From the NCBI GenBank assembly GCA_030018935.1, contig JASEGZ010000008.1, forward strand, positions 1 to 36,365: 36,365 nt of DNA. Direction: 5' to 3'. Below the pieces are notes generated by a model. It ran no database searches and was not told the origin of the DNA. It saw nothing but the letters and a program-made list of their open reading frames with translations. Origin of the DNA: Syntrophales bacterium (GTDB lineage Bacteria > Desulfobacterota > Syntrophia > Syntrophales > CG2-30-49-12). This document shows positions 4,601-36,365 of this stretch, piece after piece. The first letter of the stretch is position 1. Each line of letters starts with the position of its first letter. The position numbers were made by a program, and so were the translations under genes.

Positions 4601-6185
4601 ATATGCAAAGACATTGCCGGGTGTTGTCTATGCCACCGAGGGTCTTTTTGTCTGTTCGCAGGATTCGGCCGTTAAAATGGCAGAAATAATCAAAGAATAT
4701 AACCTGACCAGAGTAGTGGTGGCATCCTGCTCACCCCGCACACATGAGGGGCTCTTTGAGGAGAACTGTGAAAAGGCCGGTCTCAACAGGTACCTCTTTG
4801 AAATGGCCAACATCAGGGATCAGAATTCGTGGGTTCACATGAATGAGCCGGAGGCGGCAACGCAAAAGGCCATGGATTTAGTCAGGATGGCGGCAGCAAA
4901 GTCCCAGTACTTGAAACCCTTAAAACCCGGGCAACTTGGTGTCAATCATGCGGCGCTGATTATCGGGGGAGGACTTGCCGGCATTATAGCGGCGCTCTCG
5001 TTGGCGCAACAGGGCTTTGTGTCATATCTGGTGGAAAAGGAGAACGAACTTGGTGGAAATTACAGACATCTCTACTATACCCTCGAAGGCCTGGATACCA
5101 GGAAACATCTGGACGATCTTTTAAAACAGGTGGAGAAGAATCCCCTGATCCATGTATTCACCGGGGCCAGGATCGGGAAGATCGAAGGATTTATCGGAAA
5201 TTACAGGACCACGATCGAGACGGGAGGCAGTGAGCACGTATTTGAGCACGGTGTGGTCATCGTGGCCACAGGGGCCTATGAACTCAAGACAGACGAATAT
5301 CTCTACGGGAAGAACGAGCGGGTTATCACCCAGCGAGAGCTGGAAAAGCTTATTCATGAGAAAGATTCCCGAATTGCGGGGGCAGGCAGTGTTGTTATGA
5401 TCCAGTGCGTCGGATCGAGGAATGCCGAAAGGCCTTACTGCAGCAGGTACTGTTGCAGCTCGGCAATAAAGAATGCACTCAAACTGAAAGCTGCCGATCC
5501 CAAAAAGGATGTAACCATCATCTATCGAGACATCAGGACGTTCGGATTCAAAGAAGACTATTACCGGAAGGCGCGTGAGGCAAATGTGAAATTCATCCGC
5601 TACGATGAGGACAGGAAACCGGAGGTTGCAGGCGATGGCACGCAGATTTCCGTAAGCGTTTTTGATCCGGTACTAAACGAAAATGTAGAGATCAAAACAG
5701 ACATCCTGGCGTTGAGTGTAGGCACCGTTGCCAACCCTGAAAATGATGCCATCGGCAAGATGCTGAAGGTGCCGACCAATCAGGATGGCTTTTTCCTCGA
5801 GGCCCACGTAAAGTTAAGACCCGTTGATTTTGCCACCGATGGCATCTTCATGTGCGGGCTTGCCCACTGTCCGAAATTCAGCAGTGAAGCGATAACTCAG
5901 GCCAACGCCGCCGTCTCGAGGGCATGCACCATCCTCACCAAAGACTACATAGAGGCGGAAGGTAAGACGGCCTATGTGAATAAGGAAAGATGCGCGGCCT
6001 GCGGACTCTGCGAGGCCAATTGTCCCTTTGGCGCCATCGCGGTTGATCCTAAGGAGGACTGTGCGGTGGTTAATACCGTCCTCTGCAAGGGCTGCGGGAT
6101 CTGTACGGCATCCTGCAGGATGAATGCCGTTGATTTGAACGGCTTTAACAACGAGGAAATTCTGGCACAGATAGGCGCCTTTTAA
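1698..6185 (+). CDS. hdrA: HdrA-like flavin iron-sulfur protein with internal GltD-like module
   Basis: A 1495-residue subunit, probably the FAD-bearing bifurcating core of a soluble heterodisulfide-reductase-type complex. Order: Rossmann motif GSGIAG (20-25); HdrA cysteine segment CSAC (64-67); [4Fe-4S] motif CTGCGECANVC (116-126); a GltD-type cysteine region (166-217); a second dinucleotide fold GAGPAG (262-267) and third GSGNVA (390-395), together an NfnB/GltD-like insert to about 580; CLNCGICSECYRC (645-657); a second HdrA half with CVGSRD, CHCG (951-954) and GGGLAG (1090-1095); and two C-terminal [4Fe-4S] motifs. Typical HdrA is about 650 residues, so this is a fused, doubled form. The insert differs from the NfnB in this window: its final GGD motif is replaced by QEVETS (553-558), and FILYKSSGA is duplicated (411-419, 432-440). 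The start is uncertain: TTG at 1698, GTG at 1713 or ATG at 1746. Confidence 0.88.
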   Translation: MRCEEVLKDNEKIGAVMIVGSGIAGIQASLDLANSGMKVYLVENGISIGGVMAQLDKTFPTNDCSACILSPKLVEVGRHPNVDILTRRTVNGVLGQPGRFKVKLTKAPRFIDIDKCTGCGECANVCPVSVPAEFNENLNTRKAIYRHFPQAIPAAFAIDKIGTAPCKAACPAHISVCGFVALIGEGRHQEALKLIKRDNPFPAVCGRICNHPCERACRRRDADEAIDIMHLHRFVADLDLNEETRHIPEVKEKKDKKVAVIGAGPAGLSAAYYLAIEGYQVTVFETLAAGWSTLSFPESRLPKKIINSEIKIIEEMGVTIRTNTRVGRDISMDVLRKEYDAIFIGVGSHISKKFDVPGKDLKGVVEGLDFLKRATAGENISLGDRVAVIGSGNVAMDISRTALATGSKEVFILYKSSGADRTAIMAAPDGSFILYKSSGAETPVSIEEIPEGEKIRMDLLAAPVKILGSDGKVTGIECIRMEPGKPDASGRIRPTPVKGSEFTLQVDTVISAVGQTRELVHSSEGSGTACNKWSNLEIDPVTFATDMEGVFAQEVETSPATVVKTIAVGKEAATSIVRYLRGEDITSDRKRDWTKGLAERGDISDVEKAARVEMPMLEAGAKKSSQDETALGLSEEGAVYEAKRCLNCGICSECYRCVDVCVAGAIDHDMCFEEETIEVGAVIAAPGFEVFNAPLRGEYGFGIYKNVVTSLQFERILSASGPFFGHIQRPSDGKEPEKIAFIQCVGSRDVSCGNSWCSSVCCMYATKEAIVGKEHAKNLEPTIFFMDIRAYGKDFDRFVNRAKEEYGVRYIRSMPSSIKELQQTKNLLINHVQEDGTLVEEEFDMVVLSVGLTPPPEAAKLADSLGIELEEHGFCKTVLDNPVQTSREGVFVCGVFGGPKDIPETVMEASGAAACAEGLLAAQRGTMVVPKEPPVEKDIRGIGPRIGVFVCHCGINIGGVVNVPAVVEYAKTLPGVVYATEGLFVCSQDSAVKMAEIIKEYNLTRVVVASCSPRTHEGLFEENCEKAGLNRYLFEMANIRDQNSWVHMNEPEAATQKAMDLVRMAAAKSQYLKPLKPGQLGVNHAALIIGGGLAGIIAALSLAQQGFVSYLVEKENELGGNYRHLYYTLEGLDTRKHLDDLLKQVEKNPLIHVFTGARIGKIEGFIGNYRTTIETGGSEHVFEHGVVIVATGAYELKTDEYLYGKNERVITQRELEKLIHEKDSRIAGAGSVVMIQCVGSRNAERPYCSRYCCSSAIKNALKLKAADPKKDVTIIYRDIRTFGFKEDYYRKAREANVKFIRYDEDRKPEVAGDGTQISVSVFDPVLNENVEIKTDILALSVGTVANPENDAIGKMLKVPTNQDGFFLEAHVKLRPVDFATDGIFMCGLAHCPKFSSEAITQANAAVSRACTILTKDYIEAEGKTAYVNKERCAACGLCEANCPFGAIAVDPKEDCAVVNTVLCKGCGICTASCRMNAVDLNGFNNEEILAQIGAF
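2928..3017 (+). repeat. Imperfect 27-base direct repeat inside hdrA
   Basis: The two copies lie at 2928-2954 and 2991-3017 with 36 bases between them. They differ at three positions, all synonymous, and both encode FILYKSSGA. This corresponds to a 21-residue duplication in the GltD-like insert. Confidence 0.85.
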
Positions 6186-6312
6186 GTATTCAGCGCTAGG
6201 GGGATATAGATAAAGGTAAAGGTAAAATTAAAAGTCCGCGGGATACCCTTAGGTATAAATCCTAAGGAAAGAAGGTGATGGTGGAAGGTAGTTCAGCCAG
6301 AGGCGGTATATC

Positions 6313-6727: not shown

Positions 6728-7011
6728 AATCTAAACTTAAATTCAAAACCGAAGAAGAAATTGACCGTATTGTTATTGCCCAAGCAGATGATGAGTCTGC
6801 ATGGGGAGCGCCTGTGAAGGTGAGCAAGTCAAAGTCAACCTCACTTGCTCTTCCTTCTGATTTAGCCGCGCGGGCGGCATTTTTTGCCCGTCTACATCGA
6901 GAAGCAAGTTTAGAAAACTGGCTTAAACGGGTTATACAAGAAAGATTAGATATTGAAGAAGCAGCCTTTGCTGGATTTAAAAAAGAATTGGTCGCAAAGA
7001 ACAGCCGATAA
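6724..7011 (+). CDS. BrnA/CopG-like antitoxin
   Basis: A 95-residue partner of the preceding toxin. Family BrnA antitoxins have a flexible N-terminal toxin-binding part and a C-terminal ribbon-helix-helix domain that dimerises, binds DNA and represses its own operon. Here the C-terminal half (SLALPSDLAARAAFFARLHREA, then LENWLKRVIQERLD) fits such a domain: a basic/serine beta strand followed by two helices. An upstream in-frame ATG exists at 6715, but the ATG at 6724 is preferred because it makes the ATGA overlap with the toxin stop. The stop is followed at once by an inverted repeat (7016-7059). Confidence 0.65.
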   Translation: MKSKLKFKTEEEIDRIVIAQADDESAWGAPVKVSKSKSTSLALPSDLAARAAFFARLHREASLENWLKRVIQERLDIEEAAFAGFKKELVAKNSR

Positions 7012-7015
7012 CACC

Positions 7016-7059
7016 GGCCAAAAGATTGACATCCAAATGCTGACGCACTTCTTTTGGCC
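7016..7059 (+). repeat. Perfect 10-bp inverted repeat downstream of the TA pair
   Basis: GGCCAAAAGA (7016-7025) is exactly complementary to TCTTTTGGCC (7050-7059), with a 24-base loop. It has no T-run. With the hairpin at 6381-6421 it brackets the toxin-antitoxin genes, though the two sequences differ. Confidence 0.7.
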
Positions 7060-7102
7060 TGAAACGTTAAAGGAGAGGCTCTATTGATGATATGGAGAAT
7101 AT

Positions 7103-7546
7103 ATGACTGAGAATCAACCGGTTGAAGGCTGGACACCAAAAATAGTAGCCATTGTCTGTAACTGGTGTACATATGCCGGGGCGGATCTGGCGGGGATAAG
7201 CAGGATACAGTACCCGCCAAATGTGAGGATTATAAGGGTCCCCTGTACGGGGAGGATCAATCCTTTCTTTATTGTCAAGGCCCTCCAGGAGGGGGCGGAT
7301 GGTGTTCTCGTTTCCGGTTGCCATCCGGGAGAATGTCACTATCTGACGGGGAATCTGTCCGCCAAAAGGAAGTTCGCCATGTTAAAGCGTTTTCTTTCGT
7401 ATATCGGCGTAGAAGGTGACAGGACGATGTTTACCTGGGTATCGGCATCTGAGGGAGAACGCTTTGCCCAGGTCATAAAAGCCGTCACGGCAGCCGTTAC
7501 CGCCCTCGGTCCGGCAGATAAGCTGGTAAAAAAATGGGAGATATAA
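7103..7546 (+). CDS. mvhD: MvhD-like hydrogenase/Hdr iron-sulfur subunit
   Basis: A 147-residue MvhD/FlxD-type protein, the small [2Fe-2S] subunit that links an electron donor module to HdrA in Hdr complexes. Visible family marks are the N-terminal IVAIVCNWCTYAGAD, then RVPCTGRI, ADGVLVSGCHPGECHY and the C-terminal ISASEGERF-like stretch (VSASEGERFAQ). The four cysteine sites expected for the cluster are present. ATG at 7103 is preceded by GGAGA at 5 bases. It resumes the redox operon after the inserted toxin-antitoxin pair and leads into the FrhB-like gene 44 bases downstream. Confidence 0.88.
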   Translation: MTENQPVEGWTPKIVAIVCNWCTYAGADLAGISRIQYPPNVRIIRVPCTGRINPFFIVKALQEGADGVLVSGCHPGECHYLTGNLSAKRKFAMLKRFLSYIGVEGDRTMFTWVSASEGERFAQVIKAVTAAVTALGPADKLVKKWEI

Positions 7547-7549
7547 CCT

Positions 7550-7575
7550 GTCATTTCGAGCGAAGCGAGAAATCT
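7550..7575 (+). repeat. REP-like CATTTCGAGCGAAGCGAGAAATC element
   Basis: A palindrome-like element with ATTTC/GAAAT arms around a GAGCGAAGCGA centre sits in the 44-base gap between the MvhD-like and FrhB-like genes. Its centre resembles the loop of the hairpin at 6393-6409. Elements of this form recur in many bacterial genomes. Confidence 0.55.
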
Positions 7576-7590
7576 TGAGGAATTGAAACT

Positions 7591-8601
7591 GTGGAAAATG
7601 TAGAAACGAAACTACGTGAAGAAGCAAAAAAATTGCTGGCGGAAAAAAAGGTGGATCTTATCGTAGGGTATGAAAAAGGCACCCTTCCTCTTCTTGCCCC
7701 GCCATGCTTTATTACCGAGCTTGAAGACGCTGAAAAACTTGTCTGGAACGCCTTCTGCATGCAAAACCTTGCCAAGTTCGTACACGACATCCTCTCACAG
7801 CACAGGGAATCCCAGAAGCGCCTTAAGCCGGCGGACAGAACAAAAAAGACGGTAGGTATTGTCGCGAGGGGCTGCACAACCCGCTCGCTGGTGATCCATC
7901 TTCAGGAAAAGCAGTACAACAGGGACGATGTCGTGATCCTCGGTGTCCCCTGCACCGGCTATGTGGACAGGAAGAAGATGGACGCCCTCGTTGCGGGTGA
8001 GGAAATCCGAGAGGCATCCGTTGCAGGAGATTCCGTCCTGGTAAAGACAGTTGGTGGCGAGAGGAAGGTTCCTCTTAAGGAGGTGCTGGCCGATAACTGC
8101 CCCACTTGCCGTTTCAACAATCCCCTTATTTCTGATGTGATGATAGGGGAGCAGGCCCCGGCAATGGATGCCGCTCAGGAATATGCTAAGGTGGATGAAT
8201 TTGAAAAGCTTTCCCCGGATGAAAGGTGGAACTACTTTACCAGGGAGATGGATAAGTGCGTGCGCTGTTATGCCTGTCGCAATGCCTGTCCGTCCTGTTA
8301 CTGTAAGGTATGCTTTGTCGAACAGAGCCAGCCGCGGTGGGTCGGTATCGGTGAGGACCGGTCTGACACACAGGTATTTCAAATAATGCGGCTGTATCAT
8401 ATGGCGGGGCGATGCGTAGATTGCGGCTCCTGCATTGCAGTATGTCCCATGGGTGTGGATCTGCGGAGGTTTTTGAAGAAACTGGATAAGGACGCTCTTG
8501 AACTGTTTAAGTACAGGGCCGGTATCTCGCCGGACGAACTGTCCATGCTTGGTACCTTCAGGGAAAACGACAGAGAAGATTTTATCTTTGAACCGAAATA
8601 G
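7591..8601 (+). CDS. FrhB/FdhB-like iron-sulfur oxidoreductase subunit
   Basis: A 336-residue protein. The N-terminal part resembles the coenzyme F420-hydrogenase/formate dehydrogenase beta (FrhB) family (VDLIVGYEKGTLPLLAPPCF; IVARGCTTRSLVIHLQEK; VPCTGYVDRKK; CPTCRFNNP). The C-terminal third holds ferredoxin-like motifs: CVRCYACRNACPSCYCKVC near residues 227-245 and CVDCGSCIAVCP near 272-283. It probably relays electrons between donor module and HdrABC. The start is GTG at 7591 with GAGG about 10 bases upstream; no ATG fits better. Whether it binds a flavin is not evident. It sits between mvhD and hdrC on the same strand. Confidence 0.75.
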   Translation: MENVETKLREEAKKLLAEKKVDLIVGYEKGTLPLLAPPCFITELEDAEKLVWNAFCMQNLAKFVHDILSQHRESQKRLKPADRTKKTVGIVARGCTTRSLVIHLQEKQYNRDDVVILGVPCTGYVDRKKMDALVAGEEIREASVAGDSVLVKTVGGERKVPLKEVLADNCPTCRFNNPLISDVMIGEQAPAMDAAQEYAKVDEFEKLSPDERWNYFTREMDKCVRCYACRNACPSCYCKVCFVEQSQPRWVGIGEDRSDTQVFQIMRLYHMAGRCVDCGSCIAVCPMGVDLRRFLKKLDKDALELFKYRAGISPDELSMLGTFRENDREDFIFEPK

Positions 8602-24942: not shown

Positions 24943-25554
24943 ATGAGTTCATATTCTATAAATGATAATTTGTCTCTTACCCTCTTTAGTAAGACGCGGC
25001 GAACCGTTTTGTCCCTTGTTTATGGACACGCCGATGAGACATTCTACCTGCGACAACTTGCCCGTATAGCCGGGGGCGGCATGGGCGCTATCCAGCGGGA
25101 ACTGAAAACCCTTGCAGAGGCGGGTATTATCAGACGTATCGAAAAGGGAAAGCAGATATATTATCAAGCCAACCCTCAATGTCCGGTATTTGCAGAGCTG
25201 AAAAGTCTGATCATGAAGACTGCCGGCATGGGCGATATATTGAAGATGGTCCTTGTCCCACTCGCGGAACGTATCCGCATAGCATTTATTTATGGGTCTT
25301 TAGCCCGCAGCGATGAATCCAAAAGCAGTGATGTGGATATCATGATCATCGGGGATGTGAGCTTTGCCGACGTGGTTGCTGCACTCAGCCCGGCACAGCA
25401 GAACTTGAATCGCGAGATTAATCCTTCAGTTTATCCTGTCAAAGAATTCAAAGACAAACTGGTAAAGGGGCATCATTTCTTACAGTCCGTTCTTGAGGGG
25501 GACAAATGGTTCCTCATTGGAGACGAACATGACCTTGCAAGACTGGCTAAATAA
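24943..25554 (+). CDS. HTH-nucleotidyltransferase fusion protein (MNT-type)
   Basis: A 203-residue two-domain protein. Residues about 10-80 form an ArsR/MarR-like winged helix (FYLRQLARIAGGGMGAIQRELKTLAEAGIIRRIEKGKQIYY). Residues about 112-160 form a minimal nucleotidyltransferase with the exact GSx10DxD signature (Gly118, Ser119, Asp130, Asp132). In MntA-type antitoxins such a domain adds AMP to a HEPN toxin. The HTH suggests it also represses its own promoter, which lies directly upstream. The HEPN gene overlaps its 3' end. No ribosome-binding site; likely translated from a leaderless mRNA. Confidence 0.82.
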   Translation: MSSYSINDNLSLTLFSKTRRTVLSLVYGHADETFYLRQLARIAGGGMGAIQRELKTLAEAGIIRRIEKGKQIYYQANPQCPVFAELKSLIMKTAGMGDILKMVLVPLAERIRIAFIYGSLARSDESKSSDVDIMIIGDVSFADVVAALSPAQQNLNREINPSVYPVKEFKDKLVKGHHFLQSVLEGDKWFLIGDEHDLARLAK

Positions 25555-25975
25555 TGGATGGCTAAAGCCTCACAAGACAACTCCACAGGAAATTAAGGAT
25601 CTCCTGGCTGTGGCTGATCGAGACCTGACAGACTGTCAGGTAAGCGGCTTGAGTCCGGAATGGAGATTGAATATCGCCTACAACGCAGCCCTGCAATCAG
25701 CAACGGCTGCGTTAGCCGCATCAGGGTACCGGGCAGCAAGAGAAGCCCACCACTATCGTGTCATCCAATCCCTTACGAATACTATTGGCGCATCGTCTAT
25801 CCTCGTTATTCAGTTTGATCATTTTCGTAAAAAAAGGAATCTCGGCGGTTATGAACGGGCCGGCGTAATCTCGGATCAGGAAGCGAAAGAAATGTTTCTC
25901 CTGGCCAGGAAAATCCGTAGCGATGTGGAAAAGTGGCTTAAATTAAACCACTCCGAACTGCTTCAGGATGATTAA
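25529..25975 (+). CDS. HEPN-domain protein, partner of the HTH-nucleotidyltransferase
   Basis: A 148-residue all-helical protein with HEPN features: helices around NIAYNAALQSATAALAASGYR and a C-terminal RKKRN (100-104) followed by LGGYE, the RxxxRN-type variant of the HEPN ribonuclease motif. It overlaps the nucleotidyltransferase gene by 26 bases. An upstream in-frame ATG at 25493 exists, but ATG 25529 has GGAG 7 bases before it. Likely the toxin or substrate half of a nucleotidyltransferase/HEPN pair. The stop is 3 bases before the truncated cas3 at 25979. Confidence 0.75.
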   Translation: MTLQDWLNNGWLKPHKTTPQEIKDLLAVADRDLTDCQVSGLSPEWRLNIAYNAALQSATAALAASGYRAAREAHHYRVIQSLTNTIGASSILVIQFDHFRKKRNLGGYERAGVISDQEAKEMFLLARKIRSDVEKWLKLNHSELLQDD

Positions 25976-25978
25976 GTT

Positions 25979-26140
25979 ATGGATACAAAGAGTGAAATGA
26001 AATACGCTCATTCACTACCGGGAAGGCCGCCAGATCGGTGGCAACCTCTTGATGATCATCTAAAACAAGTTGCTGAGCTGTCCCGTTCCTTTGTTGACGA
26101 ATTCAGAGCAGGAAATTGGGGAACTTCCTTGATGTGTTAA
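25979..26140 (+). pseudogene. Truncated canonical cas3 (HD-domain N-terminus)
   Basis: A 53-codon frame whose residues 7-48 (MKYAHSLPGRPP, then DRWQPLDDHLKQVAELS and FRAGNWG) match the start of canonical type I-C Cas3, where YAHS-x-PG and W-x-x-L-x-x-H begin the HD nuclease. In intact Cas3 the GxWG is followed by the HDxGK metal site. Here the frame changes to TSLMC and stops, with no helicase remains after it. It lies just upstream of cas5, where cas3 normally sits in type I-C loci. A complete, different Cas3 is encoded at 29884. Confidence 0.8.
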
Positions 26141-26227
26141 TTATTATTGTAAAGTATTCAGAAAGTTGCGTTGAAAAACGAAAACGAGTAGCCAGAGACT
26201 AACTTATTAAGGAAAGGAGGTATGCAA

Positions 26228-26899
26228 ATGCAACAATACGAAATAGCATTGGAGATAGCCGGGGCCACCGCTATGTGGACACGGCCTGACACAGGCGACT
26301 GCCCAGTAAGTTATCCAGCGCCAACATACTCGGCCGTCAAGGGCATCTTCGAATCGATGCTTTGGGGGCCAGCGGTGCAGATCATTCCAACAAAAGTCGA
26401 AATATGCGCTCCTGTCCAATACCACAACTATCAGACGAACTATGGCGGTCCGCTTCGAAAATCTCGTGTCATCGCCGAAGGGGGTGGATTCCAGCTTCTG
26501 GCAACGGTACTGATTGATGTTTGCTATAGGCTATACGCAGAAGTGTTACCTCCTCCCAATATTGCTAGGAACTGTGTTCCTGATAAGGCGCGGCAATGGG
26601 ATGGGAAAACAACGTCACCGGGCCATGCCTATCGGGAAATTTTTAATCGTCGCCTCAGGCGGGGGCAATGCTTCACCATCCCGTTTCTTGGCTGGAAGGA
26701 GTTTGGACCGAGCTACTTCGGGGCATTTCGAGAGACAACGAGGGTTCAGAGCGATATACATATGGTGATCCCCTCCATGTTGCGAGAGGTTTTTTCCGAA
26801 GGCTACGCGTCAAAATGCGCATTCACCTATGAACAGGACGTCAAGATCACTGCGGGGATGATGGTGTTTTCTGGGGAAGGAGGCCACCATGCTAAATGA
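26228..26899 (+). CDS. cas5c: Cas5 (type I-C, Cas5c/Cas5d)
   Basis: A 223-residue RAMP protein. In type I-C, which lacks Cas6, Cas5 cuts the pre-crRNA and caps the crRNA 5' handle in Cascade. Motifs are YEIALEIAGATAMWTRPDTG at the N-terminus, YPAPTYSAVKGIFESMLW, and the C-terminal FLGWKEFGPSYFGAF typical of Cas5d. An ATG at 26222 exists, but the ATG at 26228 lies 7 bases after AAAGGAGG. It is the first gene of the intact cas block, 87 bases after the cas3 remnant; the stop overlaps cas8c by 11 bases. Confidence 0.92.
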   Translation: MQQYEIALEIAGATAMWTRPDTGDCPVSYPAPTYSAVKGIFESMLWGPAVQIIPTKVEICAPVQYHNYQTNYGGPLRKSRVIAEGGGFQLLATVLIDVCYRLYAEVLPPPNIARNCVPDKARQWDGKTTSPGHAYREIFNRRLRRGQCFTIPFLGWKEFGPSYFGAFRETTRVQSDIHMVIPSMLREVFSEGYASKCAFTYEQDVKITAGMMVFSGEGGHHAK

Positions 26900-28985
26900 A
26901 CTTTATCATCTTTCCGTTGTTCTGAAGGGTGTAGTTCCAACACCCGATGAGCATGACAAGTTGAGGAATTTGCCGAGCGTGTCAGCAATAAAGCCATGCT
27001 ATCGGATTTCAATCAGCCCAGACGGGTCCATTTCAGACATTGAATCTATGAGAAAAGAAAACGCGGCACGCCTCCGTAAGTGGGAGCCCAGCAATGGTAA
27101 TTCCTTCCCCGGCTTCAATATTCAGCCGCTTTACCGTCTTGCGGATGAAGACAAAAAGAAACGTTTGAAGAAGTGGCGTGAAGGTAAGGAACCGGTTGAT
27201 TTCACTCTTCTTAAAGAATGGTGTGTCGAAGAAAAAGCAAAAAACTGGAACGCGAAATCCGACAAGAAAATGGACAAATGTCTCGGGACGATTCCTCGAG
27301 AACTTCACGAGAAGTGCGCCGATATTCCAAAGGATTTTAACGCTCTAAAGAACCTTTTTGAAAGAATCATAGATTGGGGGAATGGGCGTTCTATTAAATT
27401 CTTTCAGGCTCTAGAATCGTATATCTGGAGATCTCTTGAAAAAGACGGTCGTGATCTGTCCCTGCTTTCTGTCCTGATCCACGAAGGTTCTTCAGACAAG
27501 AAACCCGAGAATGACCGCGGCACCGTCTCGGTGTTTCTGGATGTGCCGGACTGGAAGGAATATCCGGTAACCCATGAAAAGACCATAAAATACATTAATG
27601 ACTGCCTTCTGAAATCAGAAAGTGCCCATAGCATAAAAACTGGATATGAAAAAGAAGATGCTTTTGGTTTAGACAGTAGCGGTGACAAAGACAAACTTCC
27701 TGAAGTAAGGCTTCCTTATATCGGGAGAGTAATTCTCCGCGCCATGAACAGAGAGTCGCCCTGCCAATACCGATATGGAACTGTCGATGCAGGATCTTTT
27801 CGCATCGGGGCAAAAAGTCGTAAACGTTCAAAAGGCGCACTGAAGTGGCTTGGTTCTGATGACCGAAAAGGAAAGACCTGGGGATGGGCAGGTGGTAAAG
27901 AGTTAATTTTTGCCTATCCTGAAATTTTGCCAGAAGTACCGCCCAAGCTTGCTGCGTTATTTGGTGCAAGCAAATCTGACGATTCAGAAGCGCGTTTCGA
28001 AAATTACGCCAAAGACGTCGTAGACTGCCTGAAAGGGCTGTCAACCTCGCTCAAAGATGTTCAGCTTCGGGTGTTTTCCTTGCGCAAGATGGACACAGCG
28101 CGCACCAAAGTCGTTTTTTATCGCAACTATTCGGCACAACGGTTGGCAGAAGCTGCAAAGGAATGGCAGCAAGGTTGCGCCAACATTCCATCCATTCGGA
28201 TAAAGTCATGGGGGGAAGAGAAAGGAAAAACTGTTGTAGCTGATCCGGTGACACCGTTCCCGCTGCAAATTGCGGAATGCCTTAATCTCGTTTGGAAAAT
28301 GGAAGGTTCGGTTAAAAGCGATAAGAAAACAGTAAAGAAGGGTAATTCAACGCCATACCCGTTCCAGGCTATTCCTAAAACGGCAGGTATTGAGTTGATG
28401 CTCGATGAAGTTGCAGCGCAGCGACAGGTACCGCATTTGCTCACCGTAACATTACAGAATGGCAAAGGACTGTTCCTTTCATTGGGAAACAGCCTGCATC
28501 GCGATGAGGTTATTAAGCTTGATGGATTCAATAAACACAAACAGCTGATGCCGGTGATCCTGGGGCTTTTGCTCTGGAAGCTCGGCATCGGAAAGGAGAT
28601 ATATATGAACAATTCACCCTATCTGGTAGGGAGAATGCTGAAACTCGCCGATGACCTTCATGCGCTGTACTGTAAGGAAGTTCGCAAGAATAATCTGCCG
28701 CCTCAATTACTTGGAAATGCCTTGATGGTTGCAGCTCTTGACAGCCCGACTCAGGCACTTGCGCAACTTGCTTTGCGAATCACCCCATACTTGGGATGGG
28801 CGCGGACCAATACCACAGAATCAGTCGGTCTTTCACGGTATTTTCTCAAGGAATTCGGACTTATCGAAATCAAGTTGCGCGACGCGGTTTTACCTGATCG
28901 CCTCAATGATTCCGATAGAGCGCAGCTTCTTCTCGGCTACATATCCGGCAATACTCAAACTGACGAACCCACCAACAACTCATGA
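26889..28985 (+). CDS. cas8c: Cas8c (Csd1) large subunit, divergent and long
   Basis: A 698-residue Cascade large subunit, recognised by position between cas5 and cas7 and by local Csd1-like features (RVILRAMNRESPCQYRYGTVDAGSF; the C-terminal NSPYLVGRMLKLADDLH and NALMVAALDSP). Cas8c usually has about 550-650 residues, and the first 100 residues here do not resemble the normal start. It recognises the PAM and includes a small-subunit-like C-terminus in type I-C. ATG at 26889 follows AAGGAGG. Its stop is followed at once by the cas7 ribosome-binding site. Confidence 0.82.
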   Translation: MLNELYHLSVVLKGVVPTPDEHDKLRNLPSVSAIKPCYRISISPDGSISDIESMRKENAARLRKWEPSNGNSFPGFNIQPLYRLADEDKKKRLKKWREGKEPVDFTLLKEWCVEEKAKNWNAKSDKKMDKCLGTIPRELHEKCADIPKDFNALKNLFERIIDWGNGRSIKFFQALESYIWRSLEKDGRDLSLLSVLIHEGSSDKKPENDRGTVSVFLDVPDWKEYPVTHEKTIKYINDCLLKSESAHSIKTGYEKEDAFGLDSSGDKDKLPEVRLPYIGRVILRAMNRESPCQYRYGTVDAGSFRIGAKSRKRSKGALKWLGSDDRKGKTWGWAGGKELIFAYPEILPEVPPKLAALFGASKSDDSEARFENYAKDVVDCLKGLSTSLKDVQLRVFSLRKMDTARTKVVFYRNYSAQRLAEAAKEWQQGCANIPSIRIKSWGEEKGKTVVADPVTPFPLQIAECLNLVWKMEGSVKSDKKTVKKGNSTPYPFQAIPKTAGIELMLDEVAAQRQVPHLLTVTLQNGKGLFLSLGNSLHRDEVIKLDGFNKHKQLMPVILGLLLWKLGIGKEIYMNNSPYLVGRMLKLADDLHALYCKEVRKNNLPPQLLGNALMVAALDSPTQALAQLALRITPYLGWARTNTTESVGLSRYFLKEFGLIEIKLRDAVLPDRLNDSDRAQLLLGYISGNTQTDEPTNNS

Positions 28986-28996
28986 AAGGAGAAATT

Positions 28997-29884
28997 ATGA
29001 ACGACAATATCAAACGTTCTACTGGCCTCTTGATCATCGAAGTAGTGAATTCCAACCCGAACGGCGATCCCGACCGCGAGAGTGATCCGCGCCAGCGTCC
29101 CAACGGTCTCGGCGAAATCTCGCCGGTATCCTTCAAGCGAAAACTCCGCGACCTGGTTGAAAATACCGAAGGACCTGTCTTTACGGCCGTGTGCGAAAAA
29201 CTTGGTTTGAACAAGGACGAGTTTAAGATTCTCGAATCGAGGGAACGCGTCAGAAAAGATATCTCCGCTGAAATGGCTAAAGACATAAAGGATTTTGATC
29301 AGAAAGAATTCTTGAATAGTCCATTTGTCAAGAAGTATTGGGATGGTCGTCTTTTTGGAAATACCTTTCTCGAAGAAGGCGGCAACAAGGGATATATCAA
29401 GACAGGTGTGGCTCAATTTACGATGGGTCTTTCGGTAGCCCCCATCCTGATTCAACGCCACACCAATACGAACAAAGCTGGGGTGGAGGAAGGCAAGACA
29501 CAGGGGATGGCGCCGTTGGCATACCGGGTGGTCGAGCATGGTGTGTATTGCATGCCATTCTACGTAAATCCGAGCCATGCTCACAAATCCGGATGCACAC
29601 AGAAGGATGTCGATTTGATGAAGGCGCTTATTCCCTTTGCCTACGATCACACCCGTTCGGCTATCCGCCCAGATGTTCGCATCCGGCATGCCTGGTATAT
29701 GGAACACCAGGACTCGCTTGGAAGTTGCGCCGATTGGAAGTTGATTGACGCCCTGACCCCAAAGCGCAAGGGAAATGATCCGATGCAGCCTTCGACTTCG
29801 TGGAACGACTACAGCGTACCGGTTGATCTTCCGGATGATCTTAAAGGAAAAGTCTCATTTTCCGACTTGATGGGGGCTGTTTGA
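28997..29884 (+). CDS. cas7c: Cas7 (Csd2) backbone subunit, type I-C
   Basis: A 295-residue RAMP protein that coats the crRNA spacer in Cascade. The start TGLLIIEVVNSNPNGDPDRES, then GEISPVSFKRKLRDLVE, is the Csd2/Cas7c signature. Other family stretches include YWDGRLFGN and VVEHGVYCMPFYVNPSHAHKSG. ATG at 28997 follows AAAGGAG by 6 bases; an in-frame ATG at 28982 that overlaps the cas8c stop is less likely. The stop shares one base with the cas3 start (TGATG). Confidence 0.92.
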   Translation: MNDNIKRSTGLLIIEVVNSNPNGDPDRESDPRQRPNGLGEISPVSFKRKLRDLVENTEGPVFTAVCEKLGLNKDEFKILESRERVRKDISAEMAKDIKDFDQKEFLNSPFVKKYWDGRLFGNTFLEEGGNKGYIKTGVAQFTMGLSVAPILIQRHTNTNKAGVEEGKTQGMAPLAYRVVEHGVYCMPFYVNPSHAHKSGCTQKDVDLMKALIPFAYDHTRSAIRPDVRIRHAWYMEHQDSLGSCADWKLIDALTPKRKGNDPMQPSTSWNDYSVPVDLPDDLKGKVSFSDLMGAV

Positions 29885-32067
29885 TGTTATTTGCTCACAG
29901 CAGCGACTCGAAGCGGGGCATTCCGGCGCAAGACTACGCCGCCCATATCGGCGGCGTAGTCAAACTTGCCAGTCAGGCGGCTGATGCGACCGGTCATTAC
30001 GCATTGCACGATGGGGAGCTTTTGAGAAAAATCGTTCCTCTGGCTGCCGAGTTTCACGATCTGGGGAAGTTGGACGTAGAAAATCAGGATGTGCTGTCCG
30101 GAAAACGGAAGGCACGACATCTACCGGTTCAACACACCGATGCCGGAACTGCTTATCTGTTGGATAAGATTCAAGTTGCACCTGGTGCGGCTCTCGTCCG
30201 TTCACATCACATCGGCTTGCCCGATTTCATTGAAGAGCAGAACCGTAAAGAGAAGAATGTTCTCAGGGATGATCGTGTCTTAGAAAGGGTAAATCGAACA
30301 CTCCCCGAACTGGTTCGGATGCATGAAGAGACAAGGTTGTCGGCGGCGGATATAAGCCCGAATCTTCGTGAAGTGATGGGGGATGCTTCTCTTTTCTTCC
30401 GTATCGCCCTCTCCTGTCTTGCTGACGGGGATCATGCTGACACGGCGATCCACTATCAGGATCAGAGTGCCGATGAACCGTTTATTGCATTGCGACCGGT
30501 AGACCGTTTGGCGGCGCTGGATCGGTATGTCGAATCCCTAAAACAGGACAATGATCGGTCACGCCTCCGTTCAGAAGTCTATGCTGCCTGCCGGGATACT
30601 GACATACCGGGGAATATCGTCTCCTGCGACAGCCCGGTCGGCACTGGTAAAACCACGGCTGTAATGGCGCATCTGCTGGCGCAAGCGCAGAAACGAAAAC
30701 TTAGAAGAATTATTGTCGTTTTGCCCTTTACCAACATCATTACGCAGTCCGTGAAAGTATATCGCGATGCGCTCGTCCTGCCCGGCGAAGATCCGAAGCT
30801 TGTTGTCGCGGAATTGCATCATCGCGCGGAGTTTGAGGATATACATAGTCGTAAGTTTACAGCCCTCTGGAAAGCCCCGATCATCGTGACCACGGCCGTC
30901 ACTTTTTTCGAAACGCTGGCATCCAACACGCCTGCCACATTGCGGAGGTTGCACAACCTGCCAGGCAGCGCGGTTTTTATTGACGAATCCCATGCGGCGC
31001 TACCTGCCAAGCTATTGCCATTGGCATGGCGTTGGATCAAGGGATTTGCACGAGAATGGGCATGTTATTGGGTTCTTGCATCCGGATCACTCAACCGTTT
31101 TTGGAAAATTGAGGAATTCGATAAGGAAAAATCGGATATTCCAGAAATAATGCCTGTGAAATTACGCGACCGTTTGGCGAAATACGAACAAGGACGGATC
31201 ATATACCGCTTCAATGACATACCCCTGGGGGAAAGAGACCTTGTGGAATGGGTGGCCTCTCTTCCGGGACCGCGAATCGTTATTTTGAACACGGTGCAAA
31301 GCGCGGCAGTCTTGGCGCGTGAGCATGAAAGGTGTTTTCAACGCTCATCTGTGGAGCATTTGTCCACAGCGCTTACACCTTCTGATCGGGATAGAACTCT
31401 TGCCAGAATTAAATCGCGTCTGGCGGATATGCACGACACCGAGTGGACACTTGTAGCCACATCCTGTATCGAGGCCGGAGTTGATATTTCTTTCAGGACA
31501 GGGGTGCGTGAAGCAGCCTCTCTGGTTTCCCTGCTTCAAACCGCAGGGCGGGTCAATCGCCACAACCATATCAGTGCGGAGAATGTTTGGACTATCCTAC
31601 TCAAAGAATCAGACTTCCTGAAAAAGAATCCCGGCATGAGCGATTCCTCGAAGGTTCTGATTGGACTAATATCAGAAGGATGCTCGATTTCCCCCGATCT
31701 TTGCACAAATGCACTCAAACGTGAAATCCGGCTTGCCGGGACTTTTTCAAGTTCGCTGCTGAAGTCTGAAGAAGGTTTGCGGTTCCCTCAGGTTGAAAAG
31801 AACTTCCATGTTATCGCAACTGATACACGAACTGTGGTCGTTGACCAGAGTGTGGTTGAAAAGATGGAGACCCATCGCCCGGTTGATTGGCGGGATATAC
31901 AAAAAACATCCGTGCAAATATGGGGGTATCGCCTCGACAATCTTCGCATTCCCGAAGTTTCAGGACATCCAGGAATATACAAGTGGAATTATGCCTACGA
32001 TGATTTCATTGGCTATATGGCAGGTATTTTAAAAATGACAAATGATCCTAACAATTTCGTTGTTTAG
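29884..32067 (+). CDS. cas3: Cas3 HD nuclease-helicase, non-canonical position
   Basis: A 727-residue Cas3. The HD domain has His21, His58-Asp59, His84 and His108/109. The SF2 helicase has Walker A SPVGTGKTTAV (250-260), motif II DESH (367-370), motif ATTAVTFFETL, and motif VI QTAGRVNRH (552-560). All key residues are intact, so it should degrade target DNA. It lies after cas7 rather than before cas5 as in standard type I-C. Its N-terminus (MLFAHSSDSKRGIPAQDYAAHIGGVV) is unlike the canonical I-C remnant at 25979. It is translationally coupled to cas7 by a one-base overlap. Confidence 0.93.
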   Translation: MLFAHSSDSKRGIPAQDYAAHIGGVVKLASQAADATGHYALHDGELLRKIVPLAAEFHDLGKLDVENQDVLSGKRKARHLPVQHTDAGTAYLLDKIQVAPGAALVRSHHIGLPDFIEEQNRKEKNVLRDDRVLERVNRTLPELVRMHEETRLSAADISPNLREVMGDASLFFRIALSCLADGDHADTAIHYQDQSADEPFIALRPVDRLAALDRYVESLKQDNDRSRLRSEVYAACRDTDIPGNIVSCDSPVGTGKTTAVMAHLLAQAQKRKLRRIIVVLPFTNIITQSVKVYRDALVLPGEDPKLVVAELHHRAEFEDIHSRKFTALWKAPIIVTTAVTFFETLASNTPATLRRLHNLPGSAVFIDESHAALPAKLLPLAWRWIKGFAREWACYWVLASGSLNRFWKIEEFDKEKSDIPEIMPVKLRDRLAKYEQGRIIYRFNDIPLGERDLVEWVASLPGPRIVILNTVQSAAVLAREHERCFQRSSVEHLSTALTPSDRDRTLARIKSRLADMHDTEWTLVATSCIEAGVDISFRTGVREAASLVSLLQTAGRVNRHNHISAENVWTILLKESDFLKKNPGMSDSSKVLIGLISEGCSISPDLCTNALKREIRLAGTFSSSLLKSEEGLRFPQVEKNFHVIATDTRTVVVDQSVVEKMETHRPVDWRDIQKTSVQIWGYRLDNLRIPEVSGHPGIYKWNYAYDDFIGYMAGILKMTNDPNNFVV

Positions 32068-32086
32068 ACTATAGGTGCTTAAGTGA

Positions 32087-32713
32087 ATGGACGATGAATT
32101 GATTGCCATATCGGCTCTGAGTCACTATTCATACTGTCCGCGGCGCTGCGCCCTTATCCACATCGAACAGGTCTGGACTGAGAACCGTTTTACCGCCGAA
32201 GGCAGGATCATGCACGAGCATGTGCATGACGAAAGCCGGGAATCCCGGGGTGATGTTAGGATCGACTACGGCGTGTCGCTGCGCTCACTGCGCCTGGGAC
32301 TGATCGGAAAGGCCGACGTCGTGGAATTTCATCGTCAGCCGGATGGTTCCTATCTTCCCTTTCCTGTGGAGTACAAGCGGGGCAAGCCCAAGGCGGACGA
32401 CTGTGACAATGTCCAACTCTGCGCTCAGGCGATGTGTCTGGAGGAAATGTTGTCTGTGCCGATCCCAGAGGGGGCGCTCTTCTACGGCCAGACCCGCCAT
32501 CGCCTTGATGTCGTCTTCGATGATGCACTGAGACAGGAAACGGAGGAGACGGCCCGCAGGGCACACGAATTGATTGACTCCGGCATAACCCCCAAACCGG
32601 TTTACGCGAAGCGGTGCGAAAGTTGCTCCCTGGTGGCCGAATGTTTGCCGAAAACGATCCAGAAGCGGCGTTCGGTGAAGAGCTATTTGACGCGAATGCT
32701 GGGTGAGCCATGA
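32087..32713 (+). CDS. cas4: Cas4 nuclease
   Basis: A 208-residue RecB-type exonuclease with a [4Fe-4S] cluster, which trims prespacers and checks their PAM before Cas1-Cas2 insertion. Cluster cysteines are Cys17 or Cys21 in YCPRRC, and Cys177, Cys180 and Cys186 in CESCSLVAECLP. Nuclease residues lie in GKADVVE (Asp77) and PVEYKRGK (Glu95, Lys97). ATG at 32087, 19 bases after cas3. Its last 26 codons are repeated with changes at 33931-34023. The stop overlaps the ATG of a micro-ORF. Confidence 0.93.
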   Translation: MDDELIAISALSHYSYCPRRCALIHIEQVWTENRFTAEGRIMHEHVHDESRESRGDVRIDYGVSLRSLRLGLIGKADVVEFHRQPDGSYLPFPVEYKRGKPKADDCDNVQLCAQAMCLEEMLSVPIPEGALFYGQTRHRLDVVFDDALRQETEETARRAHELIDSGITPKPVYAKRCESCSLVAECLPKTIQKRRSVKSYLTRMLGEP

Positions 32714-32802
32714 AGGTCGAGCGCAAGCAGCTATTCTACAAGAATATCTTCGTGGGAACTGTGTCGTTGAATGCCCCAAAACTTAGAGGGTTGGCAGCAT
32801 GA
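32710..32802 (+). CDS. 30-codon micro-ORF bridging cas4 and fic
   Basis: ATG at 32710 overlaps the cas4 stop as ATGA, and its TGA (32800-32802) overlaps the fic ATG as ATGA. It encodes MKVERKQLFYKNIFVG followed by 14 more residues, ending GLAA. It resembles no protein I know. It may only keep ribosomes on the mRNA between cas4 and fic, or be the start of a gene cut by the insertion of fic. Confidence 0.4.
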   Translation: MKVERKQLFYKNIFVGTVSLNAPKLRGLAA

Positions 32803-33851
32803 AATCATTGGATCGCAGTTTTCTTGAGCGTCAAGCCGTTCCTTTGGAATTTGCCGGGACACTTCGTTTATTGGGTGAGTACCGGGGGAAGCAGGAACTC
32901 TATACACGGCAGCCCCCCCAGGTATTGAACACCCTGAAGCAAGTCGCCATTATCCAGAGCGCCGAATCGTCAAACCGTATCGAAGGCGTCATTGTAGAAG
33001 AAAAGCGATTGAAGCCCCTCCTGGAGAAGGAGGCGACTCCCAGGAATCGTTCGGAGGCTGAGGTTGTCGGGTATAAGAATGTCCTGTCACGGATTCACAC
33101 TGCCCATGAAAGTTTCAAAATTTCACCGAACACAATCCTGAAGATTCATCGCGACATGTTGAGCCACACCGATCTTCCCGCCGGGAGATGGAAGAATCGA
33201 GATAATACCGTTGAAGAAAGACTTCCCGATGGTCGCTGGATCACGCGGTTTGTCCCTGTCACGGCCCGCGAAACCCCCTATTACATGAATGAGCTATGCG
33301 GCCGATTTAACGGCTTGTGGGAAGAAGGCCGGATAGACCGTCTTTTGTTGATACATGCCTTTGTGCTCGATTTTCTCTGCATTCATCCTTTTACGGACGG
33401 CAATGGGCGCGTCTCCCGGCTGCTTACCGTGTTGCTGCTCCATCAGAGCGGTTACGAAGTGAGTCGCTACATTAGCCTTGAGCGACTGATCGAGGATAGC
33501 AAGGAGAGCTATTACAACGTCCTGAATCGTGCCTCAGAAAGATGGCATGAGGGAGGGCATGCAATTCTTCCCTGGTGGCAGTTCAGCCTCGGCATTTTGA
33601 TTGGCGCTTACAAAGAATTTGAAAACCGCGTGGGCATTATCCGCTCAAGTCGGGGAGCGAAAACAGCTTGGGTGAGAGATGCCATCGAGCAACTTCCCGA
33701 AGAGTTCGGCGTGGGAGAACTTGTCCGTGCCTGTTCGGGGGTGAGCCGCCCTATGATTCGTCTTATACTTGAGGCACTGCGGAAGGAAGGAAAGCTGGAA
33801 GTTCTGGGAACAGGTCGCGGGGCGAAATGGAAGAAACGCGATAATATCTAA
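32799..33851 (+). CDS. Fic-family protein, class II, with C-terminal winged helix
   Basis: A 350-residue Fic protein. The catalytic motif HPFTDGNGRVSR (His196-Arg207) is complete, so it can transfer AMP (or another nucleotide group) to protein hydroxyls. An inhibitory motif of the [S/T]xxxE[G/N] type, SNRIEG (Ser58-Gly63), lies before the core; this is the self-inhibited class II arrangement, so no separate antitoxin is needed. The C-terminal about 70 residues resemble a winged helix. Inserted between cas4 and a second cas4 tail; ATG overlaps the micro-ORF stop. Target unknown. Confidence 0.88.
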   Translation: MKSLDRSFLERQAVPLEFAGTLRLLGEYRGKQELYTRQPPQVLNTLKQVAIIQSAESSNRIEGVIVEEKRLKPLLEKEATPRNRSEAEVVGYKNVLSRIHTAHESFKISPNTILKIHRDMLSHTDLPAGRWKNRDNTVEERLPDGRWITRFVPVTARETPYYMNELCGRFNGLWEEGRIDRLLLIHAFVLDFLCIHPFTDGNGRVSRLLTVLLLHQSGYEVSRYISLERLIEDSKESYYNVLNRASERWHEGGHAILPWWQFSLGILIGAYKEFENRVGIIRSSRGAKTAWVRDAIEQLPEEFGVGELVRACSGVSRPMIRLILEALRKEGKLEVLGTGRGAKWKKRDNI

Positions 33852-33930
33852 TAAACGTGATAATAAACATGATAACAACCAAGAATCAGGTAACAACAGT
33901 AAATATAGGCAATAAATTAGGTAACAAACG
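33852..33930. other. AT-rich junction with GATAATAAAC/GGTAACAA units
   Basis: A short stretch after fic with repeats of (A)TGATAATAAAC and GGTAACAA. It borders the cas4 remnant and may mark an insertion junction. Confidence 0.4.
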
Positions 33931-34023
33931 CTGGTGACCGAATGCCTGCCGAAGACGATTCAGAAGCGGCGGTCAGTGAGGAGTTATCTGACGCGAATCT
34001 TGGGGGAGACGGGACTGGTATAA
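33931..34023 (+). pseudogene. cas4 3'-end remnant
   Basis: The frame CTG at 33931 to TAA at 34021-34023 reads LVTECLPKTIQKRRSV, then RSYLTRILGETGLV and stop. It aligns with the last residues of the intact Cas4 (LVAECLPKTIQKRRSV, then KSYLTRMLGEP). DNA identity is roughly 80 per cent over 78 bases, so it is not a fresh tandem copy. No upstream cas4 sequence is present. It lies between fic and the mntA-like gene and points to an older cas4 that once preceded cas1. Confidence 0.85.
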
Positions 34024-34080: not shown

Positions 34081-34395
34081 ATGAAATCGCGAAAGAAGCT
34101 TGAACTGACGGCAGAAAAAGTTTTCAGCATATTAAGGGAACATTCCGATACATTAGAAAGGCTTTCCGTCAAAAAGATCGGGGTGTTTGGCTCCTATGTG
34201 CGTGGCGAGCAAAAATCTCGGAGTGATATAGATTTTCTTGTAGATTTTGAAAAGCCTACTTTCGACAACTTTATGGATCTCGTATTTTCTCTTGAGAAAT
34301 ATCTTGGCAGACGAGTGGATGTTATTACGGAAGGCAGCCTTAGCCCTTATATCCGCCCTTATGTGGAAAAGGAGGTCAGGTGGTATGAAGTCTGA
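34081..34395 (+). CDS. mntA: MntA-like nucleotidyltransferase antitoxin
   Basis: A 104-residue minimal nucleotidyltransferase with the exact GSx10DxD motif (Gly37, Ser38, Asp49, Asp51 in GSYVRGEQKSRSDIDF). MntA antitoxins inactivate HepT by adding AMP units to a tyrosine beside its catalytic histidine. ATG at 34081 is preceded by AGGAGG at 9 bases. The stop overlaps hepT by 11 bases, the normal MntA/HepT layout. Located between the cas4 remnant and cas1. Confidence 0.9.
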   Translation: MKSRKKLELTAEKVFSILREHSDTLERLSVKKIGVFGSYVRGEQKSRSDIDFLVDFEKPTFDNFMDLVFSLEKYLGRRVDVITEGSLSPYIRPYVEKEVRWYEV

Positions 34396-34744
34396 CGCTC
34401 AGTTCCTGAGGCATATCTTTGATGAAATTAATTTCACCATGCGTGAAACAAGGGGGTTGGCCTTTGAGGATTTTATAAAGAACGAGACATTAACAAGAGC
34501 ATGCACAAGAAGTTTGGAGATCATCGGGGAGGCAGTAAAGAACCTCTCGCCTGAGTTCAGAAAAAGGCATCGGGCGATTGACTGGAAAAAACTTGCCGGT
34601 ATGAGAGATAAGGTCATACATTTTTATTTTGGCGTGAACTGGGATATTGTGTGGGACGTAATGGAAAATCGCCTGCCTGTTCTTAAGATTCAGATTGAAA
34701 ACATGCTGAATGAGATGAAAACAAAGGATGAAGAAACTTCTTAA
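34385..34744 (+). CDS. hepT: HepT-like HEPN ribonuclease toxin
   Basis: A 119-residue HEPN toxin with the complete RX4HXY motif (Arg74, His79, Tyr81 in RDKVIHFYF). Family HepT cuts RNA, and Tyr81 is the expected site of AMP addition by MntA. ATG at 34385 follows GGAGG; the frame extends to 34247, but that part lies inside mntA. Its end overlaps cas1 by 17 bases, so the toxin and cas1 are likely co-translated. Confidence 0.92.
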   Translation: MKSDAQFLRHIFDEINFTMRETRGLAFEDFIKNETLTRACTRSLEIIGEAVKNLSPEFRKRHRAIDWKKLAGMRDKVIHFYFGVNWDIVWDVMENRLPVLKIQIENMLNEMKTKDEETS

Positions 34745-35759
34745 CACCCTTTTTGTCACGACGCAGGGTGCCTACCTCGCCAAGGAGGGGGAGACGATCG
34801 TCGTCAAGGTGGAAAAGGAGATCCGCCTCCGTCTCCCCGTGCATACGATTGGCGGGATCGTCTGCTTCGGGAATGTCGCGTGCAGTCCCTTCCTGATGGG
34901 CTTCTGCGCCGAAAAGGGCGTGGGGATCAGCTTTCTTACGGAACACGGTCGCTTTATGGCACGGGTACAGGGGCCGGTTTCCGGCAACGTTCTCTTACGC
35001 CGGGAACAGTACCGCCGCGCTGATGACCCACAGGTCTCCGCCGATGTAGCCCGGTCAGTGCTGACAGGGAAGATCGCCAACAGCCGGAAGGTTCTCCAGC
35101 GGGCGCTGCGTGATCATGCTGATAAACTGGCTGCGGATCAGGTGGGATTTGCCATAAAGCGCCTGAACAACTATCTCGAATTGCTGAATCAGGATCAGTC
35201 TCTCAACGCACTTCGCGGTTGCGAGGGGGATGCAGCCCATATCTATTTCAACGTCTTCGACCACCTGATCGTGGCCCAGAAGGAGGCATTCTCCTTTCAG
35301 GAGCGGAACCGGCGGCCACCCTTGGACAACGTCAATGCCCTGCTCTCCTTTATTTATGCTCTGCTTGTTCATGATGTCCGCTCGGCATTGGAGACGGTTG
35401 GGCTTGATCCGGCAGTGGGGTTCCTTCACCGGGACCGACCAGGCCGACCCAGTCTTGCTCTTGATCTCATGGAGGAATTTCGGCCGTTTTTGGCGGACCG
35501 ATTGGTCCTATCCCTGATCAATCTCCGCCAAGTTCAAGGAAAGGGGTTTAACAAGACGGACTCCGGGGCGGTTATGATGACGGACGATACGCGCAAAACA
35601 GTGCTGATCGCCTACCAGGAGCGGAAACAAGAGGAAATTCAGCACCCCTTCCTCGATGAAAAGGTGAGTATAGGTCTGCTGTTTCATATGCAGGCCCTGC
35701 TGATGGCGCGTTATCTTCGGGGCGATCTCGACGGGTATCCGCCGTTTATCTGGAAGTGA
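34728..35759 (+). CDS. cas1: Cas1 integrase, type I-C
   Basis: A 343-residue Cas1 that with Cas2 inserts new spacers. The start MKKLLNTLFVTTQGAYLAKEGE is typical of I-C Cas1. Metal ligands are Glu166 (LRGCEGD), His234 (GFLHRDRPGR) and the acidic residues of LDLMEEFRP. ATG at 34728 lies inside the end of hepT. In standard I-C loci Cas1 directly follows cas4; here MntA/HepT intervenes. Confidence 0.96.
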   Translation: MKKLLNTLFVTTQGAYLAKEGETIVVKVEKEIRLRLPVHTIGGIVCFGNVACSPFLMGFCAEKGVGISFLTEHGRFMARVQGPVSGNVLLRREQYRRADDPQVSADVARSVLTGKIANSRKVLQRALRDHADKLAADQVGFAIKRLNNYLELLNQDQSLNALRGCEGDAAHIYFNVFDHLIVAQKEAFSFQERNRRPPLDNVNALLSFIYALLVHDVRSALETVGLDPAVGFLHRDRPGRPSLALDLMEEFRPFLADRLVLSLINLRQVQGKGFNKTDSGAVMMTDDTRKTVLIAYQERKQEEIQHPFLDEKVSIGLLFHMQALLMARYLRGDLDGYPPFIWK

Positions 35760-35768
35760 GGGAACGTA

Positions 35769-36059
35769 ATGCTTGTTCTTGTCAGCTACGATGTATCAAC
35801 GGTGAGTGGAGCGGGACAGCGACGGTTACACCGGGTAGCGAAGACCTGTCAGAATTACGGACAAAGAGTGCAATACTCCGTTTTCGAATGCATTGTCGAT
35901 CCGGCGCAATGGGCGACCCTGCGGCAGAAGTTGATTGATGAAATCGATCCCCAGCAAGACAGTCTGCGATTTTATTTTCTGGGGTCGAACTGGAAACGCC
36001 GTGTCGAGCATATCGGCGCCAAGAAATCGCTGGATCAGGAAGGGCCGCTGATCGTTTAA
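35769..36059 (+). CDS. cas2: Cas2, type I-C
   Basis: A 96-residue ferredoxin-fold protein, the structural partner of Cas1. MLVLVSYDVST contains the conserved aspartate (Asp8); QNYGQRVQYSVFECIVDPAQW is the Cas2 core. ATG at 35769, 9 bases after the cas1 stop. Length is normal. Confidence 0.96.
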   Translation: MLVLVSYDVSTVSGAGQRRLHRVAKTCQNYGQRVQYSVFECIVDPAQWATLRQKLIDEIDPQQDSLRFYFLGSNWKRRVEHIGAKKSLDQEGPLIV

Positions 36060-36244: not shown

Positions 36245-36365
36245 GTCGCCCCCCGCGTGGGGGCGTGGATTGAAACATCAATGGCCGTCAGGATTGTGGC
36301 AACGTTCCTGGGTCGCCCCCCGCGTGGGGGCGTGGATTGAAACGCTAAAAGAATTGAAATCATTT
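36245..36365 (+). CRISPR. Type I-C CRISPR array, leader end, cut by window
   Basis: Two identical 32-base repeats lie at 36245-36276 and 36312-36343. They start GTCGCCCCCCGCG, contain the CCCCC/GGGGG stem around GCGT and end GTGGATTGAAAC, the standard type I-C repeat. Spacer 1 is 35 bases (36277-36311). Spacer 2 begins at 36344 and is cut at the window end. The gene order cas1-cas2-leader-array matches transcription away from cas2. Confidence 0.97.

Follow-up and report, generated by a model that had tools for sequence, protein, structure and literature searches.

We analysed a 36,365-nt stretch of Syntrophales DNA (hereafter the window), which carries a type I-C CRISPR-Cas locus near its right end (Table 1). 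The type I-C marks found at this locus were Cas8c, Cas1c and the I-C repeat, while Cas5c and Cas7 profiles matched its proteins below the NCBIfam I-C cut-offs and none of its genes was classed as Cas6. Profile searches recovered the complete divergent cas5-cas8c-cas7-cas3-cas4 set that the first-pass annotation had described between two truncated genes. The Cas5 of this set matched the PDB structure of Cas5d 3vzi (E = 4e-15), and its Cas3 matched the PDB structure of I-C Cas3 8g9u (E = 2e-34). The NCBIfam model TIGR01863 gave the Cas8c 19.6 bits, far below the cut-off of 218.65, and by its profile scores this protein is a divergent branch of Cas8c (Csd1). On the contig, the array consisted of nine exact copies of the repeat GTCGCCCCCCGCGTGGGGGCGTGGATTGAAAC and a partial last one, and this repeat is of the same type as in canonical I-C loci. 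A run of N just beyond the right end of the window (L007 1367-1466) breaks the array after repeat 2, leaving its length uncertain. An MNT/HEPN-like gene pair (34081..34744) sits between the cas4 tail and cas1 as an insertion. A second MNT and HEPN-like pair was seen at 24943-25975, directly 5' of the cas3 stub, and the two pairs thus flank the cassette.

Table 1. Features of the type I-C locus in the window, with the evidence for each call.
Feature	Position	Strand	Evidence
Left scar, canonical-type I-C cas3 5' stub, 53 codons	25979..26140	+	ORF with start and stop
cas5 (Cas5c/Cas5d family), divergent lineage	26222..26899	+	TIGR01876 63.9 bits (cut-off 85); PADLOC Cas5c 85 bits
cas8c, divergent lineage	26889..28985	+	PADLOC PDLC01562 575 bits, full length
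cas7 (Csd2-like)	28982..29884	+	PF05107 181 bits; TIGR02589 123.5 bits, below cut-off
cas3, divergent lineage (HD + helicase), complete	29881..32067	+	PADLOC Cas3c 326 bits
cas4 no. 1, complete	32087..32713	+	PADLOC Cas4c 294 bits
Probable right join	32697..32784	+	87.5% identity over 88 bp to L087 12082-12169; CATGAAG common to both
fic, resident-locus accessory	32799..33851	+	PF02661
Canonical pre-cas4 spacer, resident	33883..33927	+	97.8% over 45 nt to L087 12213-12257
Right scar, last 30 codons of resident cas4	33931..34023	+	Codons 33931-34020 plus stop; Cas4 C-terminus alignments
MNT nucleotidyltransferase	34081-34395	+	PF01909 57 bits
Probable HEPN-type partner of MNT	frame ending 34744	+	Named from gene pairing alone
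cas1, resident adaptation module	34728..35759	+	TIGR03640 542 bits (cut-off 385)
cas2, resident adaptation module	35769..36059	+	TIGR01573; 84.5% nt identity to canonical L087
Start of resident I-C array	36245..36365	+	Repeat type follows Cas1

The canonical type I-C order is cas3-cas5-cas8c-cas7-cas4-cas1-cas2. The window locus shares with canonical type I-C its Cas1c, Cas2, repeat type and Cas5/Cas7/Cas8c/Cas3 families, and no cas6 was seen; it differs in its divergent Cas8c, in the order cas5-cas8c-cas7-cas3-cas4 and in the remnants of another I-C operon that flank it. We assembled 20 distinct loci of the divergent lineage with their flanks, from genomes and one contig collection. The order cas5-cas8c-cas7-cas3 was present in all 17 lineage loci where cas3 was seen, and cas4-cas1-cas2 came next in 15 of those 17. 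This order had been offered as a sign of a swap, and we rejected it as evidence, since this is the native order of a deep I-C lineage. By gene content and order, the window locus belongs to this divergent I-C lineage, not to canonical I-C, with cas3 placed between cas7 and cas4. No relatives of the cassette Cas8c were found in viral contigs and none matched in plasmids; Cas7 matches in plasmids were all below 60% identity, and those listed were below 30%. Neither Cas8c profile matched in G001, one genome of the same genus. In the closest relative, L002, cas3 is split by a frameshift (4253-6191), a gene that looks BRO/KilA-like by eye (6840-7811) lies between cas4 and cas1, and an apparent decayed duplicate of the cas1 start follows cas4. 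In the window Cas5 (26222-26899), as in the divergent lineage generally, H-A stands where the Cas5d processing site has a K-H pair, and crRNA processing may differ; we drew no conclusion from this change, since the same columns vary among canonical Cas5s.

The 53-codon canonical cas3 stub reported at the left edge of the cassette stood up to examination by ORF, HMM and alignment to intact Cas3s. It opens with an ATG at 25979 and closes with a stop at 26138-26140. Its match to Cas3c profiles was weak (E = 3e-4), its identity to intact canonical Cas3s reached 64% over 39 aa, and it scored 37 bits with the canonical Cas3 N-terminal HMM versus 4 bits with that of the cassette's own Cas3 lineage. 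The homology ended at profile position 46 of 728, after '..FRAGNWG', just 5' of the HD motif region. These scores identify the stub as a remnant of a canonical-type I-C cas3, unlike the Cas3 encoded downstream.

On the right side, the 30-codon tail of a second cas4 was likewise borne out. It encodes LVTECLPKTIQKRRSVRSYLTRILGETGLV; across 27 aa this peptide is 85% identical to the C-terminal end of the intact Cas4 upstream, and it is 81% identical to a canonical Cas4. The segment 33883-33927 matched the L087 DNA just 5' of cas4, and in the window it runs directly into the last 30 cas4 codons; similar sequence was also present between fic and cas4 in L096, L097, L081, L082 and L089. Because this canonical pre-cas4 spacer stands 5' of the tail, we rejected the tail as a direct join and take it to be the resident cas4 minus about 180 codons. 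The first-pass annotation had held both junctions to be visible; both scars do align to Cas3 and Cas4, but the cas4 tail is not itself the join. The complete cas4 no. 1 ends with GAGCCATGAAG, resembling the usual cas4/cas1 ATGA overlap, and 32697-32784 resembles an element upstream of cas4 in L087 that begins CATGAAGGTC. The right join probably lies at CATGAAG, at the end of cas4 no. 1. In the Cas4 tree, cas4 no. 1 was sister to the Cas4 of L002 (support 100/98), and we infer that it came in with the cassette. Fic relatives with 40-43% identity adjoin cas4 in the canonical loci L081, L082, L089, L096, L097, L114 and L118, so that fic, previously counted as part of the interior, was rejected as cassette cargo in favour of a common accessory next to cas4. 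Further cas4 fragments were found between effector and cas4 in L082, L036 and L165.

We compared the divergent-lineage loci with 37 canonical-order loci from the class of the window in phylogenetic trees. The Cas7 tree placed the divergent lineage in one deep clade (100/100) and the Cas3 tree likewise in one clade (support 100), whereas the Cas1s of the lineage were scattered among canonical Cas1s (8-9 changes in bootstraps). Forcing the lineage into one clade on the Cas1 tree cost 221 log-likelihood units and was rejected (p-AU = 1.2e-56). The window Cas1 was nested in a 99/95 clade with nine canonical loci and L002. These trees agree with the proposal of a foreign effector interior beside a retained cas1, cas2 and array. 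The contrast in history between effector and adaptation genes held for Cas7 and Cas3 against Cas1 but did not extend to Cas4, which was likewise scattered and, as a family, does not go with the effector. On the Cas1 tree, 6 changes sufficed for base six of the repeat, fewer than in any of 300 shuffles (minimum 11), whereas the Cas7 tree needed 13, a value that 46 of 300 shuffles equalled or undercut; repeat type goes with Cas1 and not with Cas7. The disagreement of the Cas7 and Cas3 trees with the Cas1 tree and the repeat changes indicates that effector modules moved repeatedly relative to cas1 and the array. Nucleotide identity between the window and L002 was 83-95% from cas5 to cas4 and 79-82% over cas1-cas2 (Cas1 81.7%); between the window and L087 it was 76% in cas4 and 81-85% over cas1-cas2. 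L002 has the same cassette and cas4 as the window, and its Cas1 is not far from that of the window either, so the event at the window locus may be of earlier date, in which case the tail would stem from a subsequent rearrangement.

Stubs of this kind were not confined to the window. Within the divergent lineage, clear stubs stood upstream of cas5 in the window, L030, L035 and L103, and decayed ones in L003 and L037. Canonical-order loci with other effector lineages also carried stubs (L095, L096, L097, L106, L109 and L116, and weakly L092), and the idea of a small gene peculiar to the divergent lineage was dropped, since stubs also precede the cas3 of other lineages. With an HMM of canonical Cas3 N-termini, made of canonical Cas3s only, 10 of 54 segments directly upstream of the first effector gene gave matches (E ≤ 0.021), compared with 0 of 645 control segments (best control E = 1.2). 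A stub profile run on 395 genomes of the phylum returned about 80 matches, about 22 of them in frames of up to 124 aa; this profile was built partly from stubs, and the result is a survey and not an independent test. We fetched 20 stub loci, and in most of them a complete cas3 and I-C effector set came straight after the stub. All 20 stubs tested were closer to the intact Cas3 of another locus than to their own downstream Cas3, one of them marginally. In total, about 32 loci carried a cas3 5' stub, mostly just 5' of a different effector set; many of their source genomes are probably draft or metagenome assemblies. Homology in 32 stubs ended at positions 16-87 of 728, and in 27 of these at 34-58, before or at the HD motif, with very short stubs under-counted by a search profile that spans about 46 positions. 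We also checked six longer cas3 frames. Three of them run out where the locus or contig ends, one is nearly complete, and two are true truncations; the latter end at profile positions 198 and 269, and the short stub limit is therefore not absolute. Because about 30 further loci, of several effector lineages, show the same left scar, exchange into the promoter-proximal cas3 appears to be a repeated process, not the lone case that had been described.

In L167, L168 and L170, Cas3 N-terminal stubs were present and no I-C effector set was found downstream; a Pycsar-like cyclase lies near the stub in L168, and MADS-like and methyltransferase genes in L167. L163 carries two Cas3 N-terminal stubs (1814 and 4963) separated by about 3.1 kb; a complete cas3 overlaps the second of them, and this double stub possibly records two successive exchanges.

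The stubs were then compared with each other. L096, L097 and L109 share one common junction, and decay differs among them. The window and L030 stubs differ at 9, 6 and 23 first, second and third codon positions, respectively, and keep 28 of 40 residues; this bias to third positions fits independent capture from different intact cas3 genes, and fits a functional stub equally well. Phylogeny of the stubs gave no resolution at about 45 residues. L153 and L154 have exactly the same junction. Their identity was 38-53% upstream, about 85% over the first 129 nt of the stub, 100% over its last 45 nt and 93-98.5% in cas3. The simplest reading of this one case is that a crossover took place within the stub, which served as homology arm. 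Farther along the same pair, identity was about 97% in cas3 but about 48% in the cas5-cas8 stretch and then rose again, which suggests a further breakpoint inside the effector module.

Considering all of this together, we read the stubs as probable scars left by repeated in-place exchange of effectors in the promoter-proximal cas3, and in some cases as its homology arms, and we estimate at about 0.82 the probability that the type I-C locus of the window had its effector module exchanged in place. By tree position, the cassette is foreign to the retained cas1-cas2-array, whose clade mostly pairs with other effector lineages. An alternative that we consider unlikely is that the stub is a functional Cas3 N-terminal mini-protein, regulating Cas3 or the operon and kept by selection. 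A number of stubs keep an open frame and a plausible ribosome-binding site immediately 5' of the operon, stub ends cluster at codons 34-58, and the third-position bias between the window and L030 would follow from selection as well. However, stubs were absent or undetected in about 13 of the 20 lineage loci and frameshifted or eroded in L003, L037, L096, L097 and L170, their ends and tails vary, several Cas3 types served as their source, and the L153/L154 stub is a mosaic. The common break at the same residue in the window, L030 and L003, all in one cassette clade, would also suit a single ancient replacement at the root of the lineage, with the stub inherited vertically and adaptation modules swapped later. 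This we judge improbable: a neutral relic of such age should not keep 28 of 40 residues with a third-position bias, the stubs of L035 and L103 derive from other Cas3 types, and the same scar occurs in other effector lineages.

Two further explanations would dispense with exchange at the locus, and both seem to us very remote. Local duplication alone could yield duplicated gene ends, so that divergence or rearrangement within one canonical operon might have moved cas3 and duplicated the ends of cas3 and cas4; against this, the cassette belongs to a deep clade that keeps an order of its own across 17 loci, Cas1 and the repeats have another history, and the stub resembles the Cas3 of other loci and not its own. 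The window might also be a chimeric assembly, given that the genome is in 90 contigs and has a run of N in the array; against this, the same architecture occurs in about 30 genomes from separate assemblies.

Under in-place exchange, we propose that foreign cas5-cas8c-cas7-cas3-cas4 DNA entered a resident canonical operon by recombination. No relative that keeps the resident operon unbroken at this chromosomal position was found, and the evidence for donor and recipient is thus indirect. The left join would lie after about 45 codons of the resident cas3, 3' of a putative promoter, and the right join would be the CATGAAG match between the donor cas4 end and the element that precedes the resident fic-cas4. 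Afterwards the resident cas4, now redundant, would have lost its first ~180 codons. The new effector would be transcribed from the putative resident promoter and would draw its crRNAs from the resident array, which is plausible because all effector lineages examined live with the same repeat family. The retained stub may act as left homology arm in a later exchange, as in the one pair L153/L154. A wider model, to which we give even odds, describes the I-C loci of the phylum as a fixed chassis, made of the resident promoter with the initial 35-58 cas3 codons on the left and cas4-cas1-cas2-array on the right, into which entire effector modules from several deep lineages would be swapped time and again, with the stub as homology arm for later rounds and the site as a hotspot with countable scars.

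Exchange between effector and adaptation modules is already known, mainly from conflicting trees. Published in-place effector exchange, in the portions of that work available, likewise pairs closely related cas1 genes with distant effectors at one locus; it is drawn there from trees and co-occurrence, and those portions do not describe junction scars, whereas the window has candidate physical joins and truncated resident genes. In E. coli type I-E, the two modules evolve independently according to a review (PMC4390879). Independent module evolution is common to both, and the window differs in its type, I-C, and in what marks the joins, namely cas3 5' stubs and a remnant of cas4. In the open-licence literature, we found no description of cas3 5' stubs as a footprint of exchange, or of truncated cas3 with type I-C, and the stub footprint is thus without a report that we could find.

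A short cas3 5' stub beside a foreign effector set would be a simple sequence marker of exchange, by which exchange events may be counted, ordered and assigned to the former resident. The end points of the stubs, which in 27 of 32 cases fall at codons 34-58 of a gene of about 730 codons, pose a testable question about the exchange mechanism, for which promoter capture, intolerance of a Cas3 nuclease fragment and homologous recombination via the stub are candidates. These findings also imply that very different I-C effectors may accept crRNAs of one repeat family.
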